Positions 49,186 through 54,611 of a stretch of 55,034 nucleotides of DNA are shown one piece after another. Numbering within the stretch: position 1 is the first letter of the stretch; the number at the start of each line of letters is the position of its first letter. This stretch comes from Bacteroidales bacterium. Its GTDB lineage: Bacteria; Bacteroidota; Bacteroidia; Bacteroidales; P3. The position numbers were made by a program, and so were the translations under genes. The DNA lies in the NCBI GenBank assembly GCA_017613375.1, contig JAGADZ010000065.1:1-55034 (forward strand), written 5' to 3'. The notes below the pieces were generated by a model. That model saw only the letters and a program-made list of their open reading frames with translations, was not told the origin of the DNA and searched no databases.

Positions 49186-49850
49186 TGGTGGAGAGTATCC
49201 ATACATGCCCTGAATTGATGGATGCCATCCAGCAGATAGGCCTTGTGCCGTTGCTTGACAGCGGCATCCCTGGTTTCTCTGCCGACGAGTTGGTGGCTCC
49301 GGAGTGCCGGTATGTGAGGAAAGACGACGGCTCCTGGGACTGGCCGCTGTGGGATTGGAAAGGTCCTATCGTCACTGAAGGCCATTTCGCCTACGGTAAG
49401 TTTTTCGGCGGCAAGGCGGGATTCGTCAGTATGGAATGGTGGCCTGATCTTTGCAACTACCGCCGGGCCAAATATCCCGAGCCTGCCGAGGACAGCGTCG
49501 AGGAAATCATCCTTGAGATATTACGTGTCAATGGAAACATGATTACGAGGGACCTGAGGAGTGCCTGCGGTTTCGACGGTGCCAAGATGCGTTCTCGCTT
49601 TGACAGTTACGTCACCCGCCTCCAGATGGCCTGCCGTGTGGTCACCGAAGATTTCGTCTACCCCACCGACAAACACGGTAACCGCTACGGCTGGGGTTGG
49701 GCCCTCCTCAACACCCCAGAGCACCTCTTCGGTCACGAAGCCTGCAATTGCGAGCGGACGCCCGAAGAGAGCCTCCAGCGTATCCTCACCCATCTCCGAG
49801 GCCTACTCCCGCAAGCTACAGAAAAACAGCTACTCAAACTTATCGCTTAA
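49182..49850 (+). CDS. AlkZ-related protein
   Basis: A 222-residue soluble protein resembling the Bacteroidales group called AlkZ-related: WDWPLWDWKGP, GHFAYGKFFGGKAGFVSMEWWPDL, NYRRAKYPEP, a winged-helix-like block (EIILEILRVNGNMITRDLRSA), RLQMACRVVTEDF and NTPEHLFG. AlkZ (YcaQ) enzymes are DNA glycosylases for crosslinks and alkylated bases; the related group has the helical/winged-helix elements but its catalytic activity is not shown. It starts with an ATGA overlap on the RsiV-like gene, so all three plus-strand genes form one unit; the end is convergent with the RAYT-type gene and overlaps it by about 20 bp. Confidence 0.65.
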   Translation: MMVESIHTCPELMDAIQQIGLVPLLDSGIPGFSADELVAPECRYVRKDDGSWDWPLWDWKGPIVTEGHFAYGKFFGGKAGFVSMEWWPDLCNYRRAKYPEPAEDSVEEIILEILRVNGNMITRDLRSACGFDGAKMRSRFDSYVTRLQMACRVVTEDFVYPTDKHGNRYGWGWALLNTPEHLFGHEACNCERTPEESLQRILTHLRGLLPQATEKQLLKLIA

Positions 49851-51128
49851 TACCAATTTTTGTGCCATCTCGTTGAGGGCGACAAAGCGGTAACGCTGTG
49901 ATGTGGTCGGGAGAGGCGTATAGCTATAATGACGGGTTTTCGCCTTGCGGCGTAATGTCTCTTCCACGGCAACTTTGACAGAACTTTCAAGGAAGGTCTG
50001 TTCGGTGGGTTCCAATAATAACAGCTGCCCTTTGGAGCATGCATCAAAATACACCCCTCCTGGCTTGTAGAAGTGTTCGTGGGGAGACCCTTCCTTTGGG
50101 AAGCCATCGCAAAGAAGCACCACCAGAGGGTATCCTTGTTCCCGAAGGGTGCGAGCAATCATTTTCTCTCCCTTGCTGATGGCGGCAGTGTAGGTGACAG
50201 CCCCGTTATGTGCTGCGGCAAGCACCAATTGCAAACGTTCCTGCATCTGCTCGCCGGTGGCACGGCGCGACATCTCCACCATCTGGCGGTCGGGCCAATC
50301 GAGGAGGAACTGGTTGCCCATCGAGGTGAACAACAGGCCATCGGATTCCGTCCGTCGATGAAGCTTGAAGAGGTCTGGATTATGGTTTTTGAGCCATAGG
50401 CGGCGTGGGTTATCCTTGACATAGTCAATCATGTGGCGTAGCTGTCCTGGTGCGTGAAGGATACGCTCATGATAGTAGGCCGGATTCTGCTCCCAGATGC
50501 TCCCTCTCCCCTCAAAAATGCAGGCAAACTGCACGAGAGCCTCATCGCCGCGTCCATCCCCTCCGCTTCTGTGCACCCCGGCGTCGTTCTCGCTGTTTTC
50601 CCCTGCATTCCCTCTGTTTCCGTGCACCTCGGTGGTGTTTTCGCAGTTTCCCCCTGCATTCCCTCTGTTTCCGTGCATCCCGGTGGCGTTTTCGCCGCCG
50701 TCAATCCTCTCGCCGCCGCCAAAATACTCCTCCTTGTAAACCTTGGTGCATCCGCTCTTAAACCCGCGGACCACCGCCCCGATGCTCTGCGGCAGCGGCT
50801 CCAGCACTTGGATGACAATGTGGATATGATCGGGCATCACCTTCTGTGCCAGCACCTTCAAGGCAAAGCCTTTCCCTGCGTAGAACTGTGCCAATCCGCT
50901 CAGCATCCTATACACCCTGTGTCCGAAGCTGTTGAGTTTGACGAACGCTGTCTCGGCGTTCTTGCCCTCCAGAGTTCCGAACAGAGGGAACCGTCTTTCT
51001 ACAACAAAAGTGAAATGATATATGGCACGTCCCCTGTAGTCCCAACCGTTCTCGCGATGGTGCCTCGTCGGGTCGACAGGCCGCCACACACTTGGTCTCT
51101 TGTCATTCTCTTGTGCCATATTATTCAT
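49830..51128 (-). CDS. Y1-transposase (RAYT-type) domain protein with extra C-terminal domain
   Basis: A 432-residue protein. The N-terminal part is a Y1/HUH transposase domain: YRGRAIYHFTFVVERRFPLF, the HUH pair in VMPDHIHIVIQV (His 101 and 103), VVRGFKSGC, and, after an insert, SIWEQNPAYYHERIL (candidate catalytic Tyr) and YVKDNPRRLWLK. The insert (about 140-200) is a low-complexity region with 51-bp DNA repeats. The C-terminal ~190 residues (GNQFLLDWPDRQMVEMSRRA, AISKGEKMIARTLREQGYPL, PGGVYFDACSKGQLLLLEP) form a separate domain that I do not recognise with confidence, though it resembles a Rossmann-type fold. GC is well above the neighbours. No flanking inverted repeats or target duplication were seen, so it is probably a single-copy, possibly domesticated gene. 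Confidence 0.85.
   Translation of the reverse strand: MNNMAQENDKRPSVWRPVDPTRHHRENGWDYRGRAIYHFTFVVERRFPLFGTLEGKNAETAFVKLNSFGHRVYRMLSGLAQFYAGKGFALKVLAQKVMPDHIHIVIQVLEPLPQSIGAVVRGFKSGCTKVYKEEYFGGGERIDGGENATGMHGNRGNAGGNCENTTEVHGNRGNAGENSENDAGVHRSGGDGRGDEALVQFACIFEGRGSIWEQNPAYYHERILHAPGQLRHMIDYVKDNPRRLWLKNHNPDLFKLHRRTESDGLLFTSMGNQFLLDWPDRQMVEMSRRATGEQMQERLQLVLAAAHNGAVTYTAAISKGEKMIARTLREQGYPLVVLLCDGFPKEGSPHEHFYKPGGVYFDACSKGQLLLLEPTEQTFLESSVKVAVEETLRRKAKTRHYSYTPLPTTSQRYRFVALNEMAQKLVLSDKFE
50561..50711 (-). repeat. 51-bp in-frame minisatellite in the RAYT-type gene
   Basis: CCTCTGTTTCCGTGC recurs at exactly 51-bp spacing (50611 and 50662), with diverged partial copies on both sides, about 2.7 units. 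It encodes 17-residue repeats (HGNRGNAGGNCENTTEV type) between the HUH motif and the candidate catalytic Tyr. Confidence 0.85.
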
Positions 51129-51149: not shown

Positions 51150-51202
51150 CGCCTTTTCATGCAAGTGGCAAAATTAATTTTTGCCGTTTGGATTTTTATT
51201 CG

Positions 51203-51211
51203 TATCTTTGC
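51203..51211 (+). promoter_or_regulatory. Promoter -7 element TATCTTTGC of the BspA-type gene
   Basis: TATCTTTGC at 51203-51211 has TTTG at 51180-51183, leaving 19 bp, the optimal -33/-7 spacing. Transcription should start near 51217, about 290 nt before the BspA-type start codon. Confidence 0.75.
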
Positions 51212-51216
51212 ACTTG

Positions 51217-51506
51217 CTTTCGAGAGCGAAAGCTGTAAGCAAGAAAAGCATTGCGATATAGTCCTTATCTATAAATTCGCCAAATTTTAGCAGGAGGATT
51301 GAGCATTTATGCTTTCGCTTGATTGTGTATGCTATAATTCCATAGCATATCTTCAGGCGTGAGATATGTTCCCTTCAAGTTCGTTCCTGCAAAGGTGTTT
51401 GGCGATACCTATAGATAAACGACATGAGCACATAACCTCATGCCTTTTCTTATTGGTATTGATTAACGTTCCGTTGGAGGGTCGGAATACAAAAGTAGTA
51501 TTTTAT
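51217..51506 (+). promoter_or_regulatory. Long structured 5' leader of the BspA-type surface protein gene
   Basis: This 290-nt leader holds several self-complementary segments: GCTTTCG/CGAAAGC at 51216-51233 (with CTTGC/GCAAG as outer pairing), GCGA-TATAG/CTATA-TCGC at 51253-51280, TATGCTAT/ATAGCATA at 51328-51349, and CATGAG/CTCATG at 51423-51442 followed by a T-rich stretch. A strong Shine-Dalgarno AGGAGG (51292-51297) precedes a 17-codon ORF. The remaining part (51366-51506) is open and in frame with the downstream gene. The length and organisation suggest a cis-regulatory RNA or leader-peptide attenuator; the trigger is unknown. Confidence 0.5.
51309..51362 (+). CDS. Candidate 17-codon leader peptide
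   Basis: ATG at 51309 follows AGGAGG with an 11-nt spacer and encodes MLSLDCVCYNSIAYLQA before a TGA at 51360. Shine-Dalgarno sequences this strong are unusual in Bacteroidota, where start sites are mostly recognised without them, so the match is notable. The hairpin TATGCTAT/ATAGCATA lies inside this ORF. Its stop is followed three bases later by ATG 51366, which is in frame with the BspA-type gene. Whether the peptide is made is not shown. Confidence 0.35.
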   Translation: MLSLDCVCYNSIAYLQA

Positions 51507-52955
51507 ATGAAACGTTTATTAATTATTGCATTGTTTACATTAGTTTCTTCGACTGTCATGGCTTATGATTTTATGGCTTATACCTTTGATGCAAATGGTG
51601 CTGTTAATGGTATGTTATATTATAATATTATTGACGGAGGGTGTCAAGTAACAAGTGAGTTTGATTCGTATCCATATAATGATAATTATTATGATCCGGT
51701 TGATATAATTATTCCTTCTACAGTTTGGTATGAGGGCACCTCATACTCTGTCATTAGTATAGGAGATCATGCTTTCGATAGAGGTTCTTGTATTAATTCG
51801 ATTACAATTCCTAATTCAGTCACAAGCATCGGAGAGAGCGCTTTTTGTGAATGCTATGACTTGACTTCAATAACCATTCCAAACTCTGTCACAAGCATCG
51901 GAGAGAGAGCTTTTTATTATTGCTATAGCTTGACTTCGATAACCATTCCAAGCTCTGTCACAAGCATTGGAGTTAAAGCTTTTTATGAATGCAGAGGTTT
52001 GACTTCAATAACCATTCCAAATTCTGTCACAAGCATCGGAGAGGGGGCTTTTTCTGGTTGCTCTGGCTTGACTTCAATAACCATTCCAAACTCTGTCACA
52101 AGCATTGAGGGGAAAACTTTTGCTGGATGCAGTAGCTTAACATCGATAACTATCCCGAACTCTGTCACAAGCATCGGAGAGTGGGCTTTTTCTGGTTGCT
52201 CTGGCTTGACTTCGATAACCATTCCAAGCTCTGTCACAAGCATTGGAGTTAAAGCTTTTTATGAATGCAGAGGTTTGACAAAAACAAACTACACGGGTTC
52301 TATTTCTCAATGGTGTAATATAGATTTTTCTATTACACCTGCTGATGGTGGGCCCGTTAATTCGAATTATTCGAGCAACCCTATTGTTTATTCACATAAT
52401 TTATTTATTAACAATATAGAAGTGATTGATTTGGTGATCCCTGATGATGTGACGATGATTAAGGATTTGGCTTTTGTTTGTTGCACGAGACTGTCATCGT
52501 TGACAATTGGAAGTTCTGTCACCAGTATTGGTGTTGGTGCTTTCTTTATCTGTACCGGATTGACTGAAATAACAAGTCTTAATACGGTTCCTCCAATTTT
52601 ATATATGTATATAGATTGGAACCCTTTTTATGGTATAAGTCTTTATTACATACCTAAAAATATTCCATGTGGAACATTAGCAGCATATCAATCAGCATGG
52701 GGAGGTATTAACTATAGCGAGGACTGTGGCGCTATAGAGGAAATATCGGAAGCTCCTCTTATATACCAACTCGATGGTGGAATTATTGTTGAGGGTGGAG
52801 AAGGCAACATAATAACGTTATATGACATGAATGGGCGTATGCTGGCCACTAAACGTGACGACTACACCCAATTACGGTTTGACGTCCCTGCCTCAGGAGC
52901 CTATTTGATTAAGATTGGTAACTATCCCGCTAGAAAGGTGGTGGTGATAAAATAA
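51507..52955 (+). CDS. BspA-type leucine-rich repeat surface protein with T9SS type A sorting domain
   Basis: A 482-residue exported protein. The signal peptide [19 protein letters not shown] fixes the start at ATG 51507; the frame is also open upstream to 51366. After a short beta region (20-90) come seven 23-residue LRR_5 repeats (consensus [18 protein letters not shown]..) and two more diverged repeats ([37 protein letters not shown]). The C-terminal ~70 residues are a type A sorting domain ([16 protein letters not shown]... [19 protein letters not shown]). BspA-like proteins bind host or bacterial surface molecules. The gene has a long structured leader and a strong terminator; the LRR array is nearly identical at the DNA level. 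Confidence 0.88.
51798..52280 (+). repeat. 69-bp tandem coding repeats (LRR array)
   Basis: Seven units of 69 bp encode the LRR_5 repeats. Units 3 and 7 share an identical stretch of about 72 bp starting at 51929 and 52205 (276 bp apart, exactly four units); units 4 and 6 are also very similar. Confidence 0.9.
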
Positions 52956-53200: not shown

Positions 53201-53830
53201 ATGGAATATATGAATTATCTACAGTTCAGAGAGCAATGGCACAGTTTGGGGTGCTTCAACATTTACCAGGTACGTGCATGGCGAGCCGATTTTGACCGCA
53301 CCAACCTCTCCCGCTGGGTGAAGCGTGGATATCTGGCTCGGATTCGCCAAGACTGGTATGCTTTCAGCGATATGGTCTCCCAGCCAGACGCGGCAAGGTA
53401 TGTGGCCAGTACAATCTATAGCCCTTCCTACATAAGTCTTCATGCTGCATTGGCCTTTTTTGGCATCATACCCGAGGCTGTGACAAAGATTACCTGTATC
53501 ACGACCATGCGCACCACTTCATACAGCAATGTATTTGGTGAATTCAGTTACCAAACCGTCAAACCCAAGATCTTTTTCGGATATACACAAATGTCAATGC
53601 CTTCGGGAGGAAGTTATCTTATGGCACTTCCTGAGAAGGCAATGGTCGACTTATTGTATCTTTATCCTCAGTATGGTACCAAAGAGACTCTACTTGACCT
53701 TCGATTTGATGACGACTGGATGCAGGAGGAACTGAATATAGAACGGCTGCTGGATTTTGCCTCGCGATGCGATTCCAAAAGTCTCCAAAAAAGAGTAGAT
53801 TTACTTATCAATACCTATCTTCATGATTGA
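53201..53830 (+). CDS. AbiEi-type antitoxin (type IV toxin-antitoxin)
   Basis: A 209-residue protein with an N-terminal winged helix (FREQWHSLGCFNIYQVRAW, then NLSRWVKRGYLARIRQDWYAF) and the AbiEi C-terminal domain (YSPSYISLHAALAFFGIIPE, ITTMRTTSY, FFGYTQM, LPEKAMVDLLYL). It represses its own operon and neutralises the AbiEii toxin indirectly. A start at ATG 53210 (MNYLQFREQ) would fit relatives equally well. It overlaps the toxin gene by 8 bp (53823-53830). Confidence 0.85.
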   Translation: MEYMNYLQFREQWHSLGCFNIYQVRAWRADFDRTNLSRWVKRGYLARIRQDWYAFSDMVSQPDAARYVASTIYSPSYISLHAALAFFGIIPEAVTKITCITTMRTTSYSNVFGEFSYQTVKPKIFFGYTQMSMPSGGSYLMALPEKAMVDLLYLYPQYGTKETLLDLRFDDDWMQEELNIERLLDFASRCDSKSLQKRVDLLINTYLHD

Positions 53831-54611
53831 AATAAATTCGTTATTAGGCTATTATCCACAAGCGATTGCGACAAACAAGGCATTTCACAAACATATCTTG
53901 AAAGAATATGTTGAACTGCTGGCGTTGGAGCATCTGTCTCGGTCTCCACTGGTGGCCAAGATTGTATTCATAGGCGGAACCAATCTCAGGCTTGTTCATG
54001 GAATTGACCGCTTCTCCGAAGATTTGGATTTCGACTGCAAAGGACTGACCAAGACTGAATTTATAGCATTATCGGACGAAGTGGCAAAGTGTTTGAGAAA
54101 TAACGGTCTGCGGGTGGAACTGCGTGATAAGGACACCTCACACCTTACAGCGTTTCGGCGTAACCTCTATTTCCCTGAGTTGCTGTTCGAGATGGGGCTA
54201 TCCGGCCATCGCGATGAACGCTTCCTGATGAAAATAGAATCTCAGGATCAAGGTGTCAGTTATCAGTCACAGTCAGCATTGATTAATTGCTGTGGATTCT
54301 TGTTTCCCATGCCTGTGGCGCCCAAAGAGGTGCTTCTGTCCATGAAACTGTCGGCATTACTGACGAGAGCAAAAGGACGGGATTTCTACGATACAATCTT
54401 TTTATGGCAGCAGACAAGCCCTGACTACGACTTCCTTAGCGACAGATGCGGTATTGGTACGCCAAAGGCCCTGAAAGAGGCATTGAAAGAGAAACTGTCG
54501 TCCACAGACTTAAAATTGAAGCAGCGAGACTTCGAGCATCTGCTTTTCAATACGGCTCGTAGCGCACAGATTCTTTATTTCAAGGAGTTTATAGATGAGA
54601 AACTATCCTGA
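53823..54611 (+). CDS. AbiEii/AbiGii-type nucleotidyltransferase toxin
   Basis: A 262-residue nucleotidyltransferase-fold toxin. Key motifs are FIGGTNLRLVHGIDRFSED with LDFD (GG, then the acidic DxD pair), KIESQ, PKEVLLSMKLSALLTRAKGR and GRDFYD. AbiEii enzymes use a nucleotide (GTP in the lactococcal case) to modify a target and give reversible growth arrest, often protecting against phage; later work on relatives showed tRNA nucleotidylation. The target of this one is unknown. It is translationally coupled to abiEi and followed by a strong terminator. Confidence 0.86.
   Translation: MIEINSLLGYYPQAIATNKAFHKHILKEYVELLALEHLSRSPLVAKIVFIGGTNLRLVHGIDRFSEDLDFDCKGLTKTEFIALSDEVAKCLRNNGLRVELRDKDTSHLTAFRRNLYFPELLFEMGLSGHRDERFLMKIESQDQGVSYQSQSALINCCGFLFPMPVAPKEVLLSMKLSALLTRAKGRDFYDTIFLWQQTSPDYDFLSDRCGIGTPKALKEALKEKLSSTDLKLKQRDFEHLLFNTARSAQILYFKEFIDEKLS

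Follow-up and report, generated by a model that had tools for sequence, protein, structure and literature searches.

To our knowledge, few cis-regulatory RNAs have been described in Bacteroidales. The DUF805 (RF03081) and DUF805b (RF02914) motifs are cis-regulatory hairpins that lie shortly before the start codon in Bacteroidetes mRNA leaders, while another class, the pseudoknotted transcription-terminating riboswitches, uses a strand that is shared by the terminator and the anti-terminator. Riboswitch candidates with this shared-strand layout are presented in PMC11109978. Structured RNA candidates of Bacteroidetes in PMC2864571 include Bacteroidales-1, Bacteroides-1, Bacteroid-trp, 6S-flavo, and Flavo-1, together with Bacteroides-2, reported there from one sequenced organism, and GUCCY-hairpin; the last two stand without an accession in the table of that paper and hence fall outside our comparison with Rfam. 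Other surveys report thousands of human-microbiome candidates (PMC8040213) and 64 structured leaders (PMC9723704). In B. thetaiotaomicron, 5′ UTRs have a mean length of 52 nt and a median of 32, and 13.5% of mRNAs carry a 5′ UTR of more than 100 nt (PMC7366714).

Here we analyze a leader of about 290 nt in the window, a 55,034-nt stretch of Bacteroidales DNA. With moderate confidence, we consider it probable that this leader belongs to a class of leader RNAs that spans the order Bacteroidales and acts in cis as a transcription attenuator.

A Long Leader before a Surface Protein Gene

The gene behind the leader (51507..52955, + strand) encodes a 482-aa BspA-type LRR surface protein (PF13306 (LRR_5), E 1.2e-74). 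An earlier note on this DNA had described the product as a BspA-type T9SS surface protein; the LRR_5/BspA part of that description holds, but the T9SS part is only suggestive, with the sorting domain TIGR04183 at 20.3 bits, below its cut-off of 23. About 300 nt ahead of the ATG at 51507, the sequence agrees with the Bacteroidota-type promoter proposed there, a −33 box TTTG (51180..51183, +) followed after a 19-nt spacer by a −7 box TATCTTTGC (51203..51211, +; pattern TAnnTTTG), and these boxes would place the transcription start near 51217. Upstream lies a divergent ORF (49830-51128, −) with weak resemblance to REP-associated tyrosine transposases (28.8 bits, cut-off 80) and a Y1_Tnp match of 21.9 bits (cut-off 23); by eye it contains an apparent internal tandem repeat near 50540-50700, and a few relatives have akin neighbors (by eye or DNA match). 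On the 3′ side of the BspA gene is an AbiEi/AbiEii-like toxin-antitoxin pair (53201-54611, +), in which AbiEii scores 72.4 bits (cut-off 22.5) and AbiEi 33.4 bits (cut-off 150).

Distribution across Bacteroidales

Homologs of the leader are common in its family and extend across the order, as both searches suggested in the earlier note found. At E ≤ 1e-3, BLASTN with a 307-nt query matched 105/190 genomes of the window's family, most of them in one genus (88 genomes at E ≤ 1e-20 and another 17 more weakly, as counted from the listing); this search scored three candidates per genome, so copies per genome cannot be taken from it. A covariance model built from 80 copies matched 70/393 genomes of the order at E ≤ 0.01, in 43/206 genera, and in a class-wide draw at E ≤ 0.001 it matched 6/295 genomes, the window's own included and two of the six lying outside the order. 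Each of six well-assembled relatives has between 2 and 8 matches at E ≤ 0.01, including partial ones. The genome of the window itself, which is 78% complete, has the window leader as its only good copy: a 341-nt leader query found one full copy and nine further matches that are pieces of 17-36 nt, and the covariance model added only two weak matches of 17-18 bits. An exact pattern found 86 stretches in a species-genome collection, and the 80 titles listed among these are all Bacteroidales/Bacteroidetes, from MAGs or uncultured organisms, with many names that point to ruminants.

Searches of plasmids with two queries gave no match, nor did the window leader match any phage record. The copy L214 matched one such record, MT837835.1, with host-like genes; this record (L266), named a phage, holds by eye a phosphoglucomutase-like ORF and a lipoprotein gene and is probably host DNA. 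Viral contigs gave 0, 0, and 2 matches. One RNA copy (L265, ~1028-1242) sits on a prophage-like contig, at what looks like a prophage edge, near an apparent tyrosine recombinase (by eye). A stretch in L045 (genome G113, ~1500-1760) has the same promoter and 5′ hairpin (H1, below), a much diverged core, and a strong long-range fold, and is possibly another branch of the leader class.

Two sets of homologs serve for comparison. The near set comprises 90 elements, from which identical elements, matches of less than 60 bits, and late-in-profile starts had been removed; 89 were carried forward and 80 of these form the near alignment, nine near copies having been left out by hand. For the order-wide set, the model listed 116 matches, 5 of them in the window's own genus, and the alignment holds 68 of the 111 listed from other genera, mostly the higher-scoring ones. 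Identity to the window leader is 85-91% for the best full-length near relatives. The promoter recurs in both sets: GTAnnTTTGCA lies no more than 40 nt from the element start in 88/90 near relatives, a count in which the profile defining the 90 takes in that stretch, and TAnnTTTG lies within 90 nt upstream of 58/68 order-wide homologs, where the box is outside the covariance model.

A Covarying Pseudoknotted Core

The leader is strongly structured, as had been proposed. Its 294 nt (51213-51506) fold at −87.7 kcal/mol, against −67.65 (sd 5.32) for shuffled sequences (z −3.77; 0/200 shuffles as good). Four hairpins, as first described, can be drawn locally, but the fold that is supported has two large hairpins with kissing loops, and the dominant pairing, absent from the earlier note, is long-range, between 51265-51295 and 51385-51418. 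Of the local elements, hairpin H1 at the predicted 5′ end of the transcript (51213..51243, +; −10.2 kcal/mol) is kept in near relatives, and a terminator-like hairpin, CATGAG-CACATAAC-CTCATG (51423..51442, +), is 99.4% paired in near relatives with double changes in 2/6 pairs. The latter is weak when folded alone (−6.1 kcal/mol), and each of the two by itself is only moderately better than shuffles (z −1.59 and −2.09, respectively). With the T-rich run that follows, CATGAG-CACATAAC-CTCATG-CCTTTTCTTATT (51423-51454), it is one of three sites returned by a terminator scan of 411 nt, in which 0.3 were expected; the others are its opposite-strand mirror and one at 51162, upstream of the predicted transcription start. 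An apical hairpin, GTATGCTAT/ATAGCATAT (51327..51350, +), is 90.8% paired in near relatives. Finally, a 3′ module, TTCCGTTGGAGGGTCGGAA (51469..51487, +), forms a hairpin with GGAGG in its loop 19 nt before the ATG; alone it barely beats shuffles (z −0.72), and a loose pattern finds it in 81/90 near relatives, with 8 lacking it and one match judged spurious on reading.

Covariation across the order supports a pseudoknotted core. A scan of the 68 order-wide homologs without a preset structure ranked kissing helix 3 first and the small hairpin presenting helix 4 next. In a 48-pair pseudoknotted model of these homologs, 88.6% of cells are paired versus 77.8% in shuffles, the covariation score is 0.361 versus 0.177, and the compensatory changes anticipated for the leader's pairings are abundant, with 395 double-change cells versus 143.7 and 34 pairs that have double changes; 0/500 shuffles do as well on each of five measures, and sliding the model by 1-3 columns lowers pairing to 34-50%. 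The near-relative model (79 sequences, 45 pairs, without helix 7) is 94.3% paired (0/500 shuffles) and has 416 double-change cells versus 122 (0/500), 22 pairs with double changes versus 17.1 (reached by 3/500), and 70 further pair types versus 64.5 (reached by 16/500), while a model of the alternative pairing has one measure reached by 89/500 shuffles; the sequences are related, so all such shuffle counts are not probabilities, and shuffle and permutation scores are inflated. RNAalifold, run on the 80-copy near alignment, cannot by itself show pseudoknots.

In this architecture, hairpin I is closed by helices 1 and 2 and its loop carries the 5′ strands of helices 3, 4, and 5, while hairpin II is closed by strand 6 and helix 7 with the 3′ partner of that strand and its loop carries the 3′ strands of helices 5, 4, and 3. 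In the near-relative model (all strands +), helix 1 joins AAAGCAT (51245..51251) to ATGCTTT (51309..51315), with 95.3% of cells paired in the 79 sequences and double changes in 1/7 pairs, and helix 2 joins AGTCC (51260..51264) to GGATT (51296..51300), with 82.8% paired and double changes in 2/5 pairs. Kissing helix 3 pairs TTATCTAT (51265..51272) with ATAGATAA (51411..51418) and has double changes in 8/8 pairs among near relatives. Helix 4, also kissing, pairs TCGCCAAA (51277..51284) with TTTGGCGA (51398-51405), is 90.8% paired in near relatives and 95.2% order-wide, and has its 3′ strand borne in the loop of a small hairpin, GGTG...TACC (51394..51409), whose closing pairs are 100% paired with T-A/C-G covariation. 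Kissing helix 5 pairs GCAGGA (51290..51295) with TCCTGC (51385..51390), with double changes in 5/6 pairs among near relatives, and is the weakest part of the order-wide model (63.1% of cells paired). At pairs with a Watson-Crick consensus, G.U exceeds A.C by 243 to 89 in the 68 order-wide sequences and by 126 to 40 in the 80 near ones, which indicates that the pairing is that of an RNA read on this strand, the structure having been drawn on this strand in a way that somewhat favors G.U in the count.

Two Partners for One Strand

The core contains a candidate switch. Strand 6, GGCGTGAG in the window (51356..51363, +) and GCGTGGG elsewhere, has an order-wide counterpart that covaries with two partners. 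The 5′ partner, CGCTTGA (51316..51322, +), pairs with TCAGGCG at 51353-51359, and the 3′ partner, CTCATGCC (51437..51444, +), is followed directly by a T-rich tract, TTTTCTTATT (51445..51454, +). Across the order, the 5′ pairing has 97.9% of cells paired with double changes in 4/7 pairs, and the 3′ pairing 91.7% with double changes in 5/8. The duplex energy of strand 6 is far better with its own than with permuted partners (z −10.8 and −9.7 for the 5′ and 3′ partners, respectively), compared to −0.2 for unrelated segments and −2.4 for the two partners with each other. Both pairings use overlapping bases and are thus mutually exclusive. In 67/68 order-wide homologs, the 8 nt that follow the 3′ partner include at least five T, a count that benefits from a homolog-finding model that contains the T tract and so favors copies having it. 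In the near family, the 5′ pairing (94.5% paired, zero double changes) and the 3′ pairing (99.7%, double changes in 1/8 pairs) hardly vary, so this family says little by itself and the case rests on the order-wide set. There, as computed, two exclusive pairings, one of them a stem followed by a T tract, appear to constitute the anatomy of an attenuator, and they lend weight to the original suggestion that the hairpin and T-rich stretch may attenuate transcription.

We propose that the transcript begins near 51217 and that its core would fold as two large hairpins that contact each other through a kissing helix between their loops. Strand 6 (51356-51363) would then pick either its 5′ partner within the core, with transcription continuing into the surface-protein gene, or its 3′ partner ahead of the T-rich tract, forming a terminator-like stem at which transcription would stop before the gene; in the window's family, the local hairpin CATGAG/CTCATG, which in the window (51423-51442) also claims the 3′ partner, may compete for it. 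Candidate triggers for this choice are a metabolite, an ion, a protein, a trans RNA, or transcription speed. Some features speak against attenuation: in the window, 73 nt lie inside the 3′-partner stem, whereas a usual terminator has a short loop, the local hairpin is weak (−6.1 kcal/mol), and the strand 6 pairings of the near family have few double changes.

Exchangeable Genes behind the Leader

The RNA recurs on the same strand directly before coding genes. A same-strand ORF starts within 100 nt of the RNA 3′ end in 69/76 near and 45/59 order-wide loci, versus 29/76 and 11/59 for a divergent ORF within 100 nt on the 5′ side (in the order-wide control, the count starts 95 nt from the RNA, since the 5′ part of the leader itself fills the nearer space; without the offset it gives 6/59). 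Within 300 nt the contrast is smaller (76/76 and 55/59 versus 57/76 and 31/59). Recurrence in this place together with compensatory changes is characteristic of cis-regulatory RNAs, and with homologs, covariation, and position all in agreement, the initial view of the leader as a conserved cis-regulatory RNA rather than spacer is supported.

Downstream genes are diverse. First proteins were analyzed for 75/84 near and 53/59 order-wide loci (six short or doubtful ones were left out of the latter), and they match 41 and 27 Pfam families, respectively, ranging from surface repeats to nucleases and kinases. LRR_5 proteins account for 10/75 near and 16/53 order-wide; the latter fraction overstates how often the link arose because 12/53 proteins come from one genus (f69 g80) and are mostly LRR-like by eye. 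Other near first genes encode fn3 proteins, methyltransferases, Mrr and PD-(D/E)XK nucleases, and TerB, lipoproteins are present by eye, and PADLOC reports one ZorA2 (1.1e-177) and several candidate-defense models. The expected position before secreted genes is therefore borne out insofar as LRR_5 and lipoprotein-like genes are among those just downstream, and the idea that surface LRR genes are targets holds in that LRR_5 recurs, but many other gene kinds follow the leader and BspA genes are not its sole company. LRR_5 matches number 9 to 113 per genome in six of seven genomes searched, with one in the seventh, so most such genes probably lack the leader. Two mini leaders (L056 and L059, genome G096, ~1500-1620) have the promoter, H1, the T-tract end, and the 3′ module without the switching core, and both are followed by LRR_5 matches, so the core is not indispensable there. 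We considered whether they might be empty sites bearing a perfect hairpin and dropped the idea, as one exact pattern searched in 119 genomes gave 0 matches; we read them as plain deletions.

The leader lies at a swap point in relatives, with different genes behind a shared flank. Both flanks are available for 79 near elements. Of these, 32 pairs, made up of 26 elements in 9 flank groups, have the upstream flank in common, and 4 of the pairs also agree at the downstream start; at that point the remaining 28 pairs lack any DNA match, and their first proteins lack detectable similarity. Conversely, of 35 pairs that share the downstream start, 31 have other flanks and 4 the same flank. One locus (L062) has a tandem element-gene-element-gene arrangement.

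Other sequences occur near the swapped genes. A repeat of ~90 nt with a period of ~11 nt, ending in GCAAAAGGGGAGCAAAACC (L068:10495-10600 and relatives), is often found at the 3′ end of swapped genes and occurs in 8/10 genomes searched, though not in the window's own. A repeated 83-nt match had raised the suspicion of a tRNA at the cargo 3′ end, and this was rejected, as ARAGORN found none in 13/15 loci and none at the repeat in the other two; the 83-nt match is 11-nt-periodic sequence that also occurs away from leaders, and it is therefore not counted as part of the leader. In 18/90 near copies, a GTTGCGCCCGACACGTAT-like motif (with up to 3 changes) starts no more than 60 nt 3′ of the leader.

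Matched Alleles of Helix 3

Kissing helix 3 is variable, with 33 distinct sequences among 80 near copies. Across 261 pairs in which the remaining core is at least 90% identical, helix 3 is identical (16/16) in 37, has 12-15 identical positions in 17, and has 11 or fewer in 207, and the two strands change together across ~138 nt of largely unchanged RNA. At the orthologous loci L062, L070, and L096, which share flank and gene, the promoter, H1, and the 3′ end are near-identical while helix 3 differs on both strands. One tentative reading, to which we give only a modest chance, is that the RNA is an identity-coded switch for an exchangeable arsenal, in which helix 3 serves as a kind of barcode and the promoter-leader stays while surface and defense genes are swapped behind it. 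If so, matched alleles could prevent pairing between co-resident leaders, or a trans partner specific to each allele could recognize them. A fourth same-flank, same-gene pair (L069 and L071) has the same helix 3 and counts against the barcode, and avoidance of equal alleles within genomes is not significant (0/28 pairs versus 135/3132 between genomes, with 1.2 expected). Fast neutral drift with compensation is also possible since helix 3 is free in sequence while the rest is constrained.

Alternative Explanations

Several explanations compete with cis-acting attenuation. One, which we consider unlikely, is an independent trans-acting RNA of ~235 nt, non-coding and terminated at the T tract, with the gene behind it transcribed through read-through only. 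Such an RNA would fit a core with long-range closing pairs and a T tract at its end, the several copies per genome in relatives, and loops that are conserved in sequence, but the same-strand ORF within 300 nt in all near and nearly all order-wide loci, more frequent than divergent ORFs on the 5′ side, argues for a role in cis; a scan for a second promoter between the T tract and the ATG covered the sigma-70 type, as distinct from that of Bacteroidota. The swap-point data could instead suggest a recombination seam or mobile DNA element, in which promoter and leader form a module where accessory genes exchange and the fold matters as single-stranded DNA. The 28/32 same-flank pairs with unrelated first genes, the 31/35 same-start pairs with other flanks, the tandem arrangement in L062, and the Y1/RAYT-like gene that adjoins the leader in the window are all in keeping with this, which we nonetheless regard as quite unlikely: an excess of G.U over A.C is not favored by single-stranded DNA, the promoter is kept in relatives, and RAYT-like neighbors occur in only a few of the loci listed (by eye).

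A passive stabilizing 5′ UTR, shared by recent duplication, would explain the 85-91% identity of the best full-length near relatives but is decidedly improbable given that the structure persists, with compensatory changes, in order-wide homologs of far lower identity. Scarcely credible is a leader-peptide attenuator, in which translation of a short leader ORF decides the fold. A 17-codon ORF does begin with ATG at 51309 in the window, and near relatives have ATG there in 60/80 copies and ATG, GTG, or TTG in 75/80. However, this start lies within helix 1, where base pairing could suffice to explain why it is conserved, the order-wide homologs have ATG there in 15/68 and ACG in 35, and the frame ends after anywhere from 4 to 268 codons in 75 near relatives (17 codons in 16 and 21 in 12), so that no conserved short ORF is seen at the one place examined.

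Comparison with Known RNAs

Cis-acting attenuation would make the leader a large pseudoknotted, apparently switching RNA class for an order with many gut bacteria, placed before fast-changing surface and defense-like genes. It raises the questions of what signal unrelated genes might have in common and why both strands of one helix change in concert in an otherwise near-constant RNA. With Rfam 15 at the gathering cut-off, no listed match overlaps the RNA in the window or at 20 order-wide loci, and at E ≤ 1 no match at gathering score overlaps it at 8 loci; sub-threshold matches of the window region (up to E 10) look like chance. Elsewhere in the window, Rfam identifies a class A RNase P RNA (391-759, +; RF00010, 255 bits). 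Among the entries listed, a search of an open-access literature library gave no description of the leader class. An earlier listing may exist in supplementary tables, such as those of PMC8040213 and PMC9723704, or in papers outside that library. Bacteroidales-1, Bacteroides-1, Bacteroid-trp, 6S-flavo, and Flavo-1 share with the leader their phylum and their nature as structured RNAs; all five carry Rfam accessions and are absent from the Rfam matches of the window and of the homologs scanned.

DUF805 is similar in position. An RF03081 match (68.5 bits) lies 20 nt 3′ of the RNA in L217, one of 20 homologs scanned, at about the position of the window's 3′ module; the window region itself has no DUF805 match even at E ≤ 10. 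In contrast to DUF805, the leader has a 218-position core that is not part of RF03081, and a DUF805b match in L203 is on the opposite strand, 5′ of the RNA. The leader also resembles pseudoknotted transcription-terminating riboswitches, with which it shares conserved loops, pseudoknots, exclusive pairing, a T tract, and an upstream position. It differs from them in its two large kissing hairpins, in the 33 helix-3 sequences among 80 copies, and in its unrelated downstream genes: the 75 near and 53 order-wide first genes point to no single pathway, which is unusual for a metabolite riboswitch.
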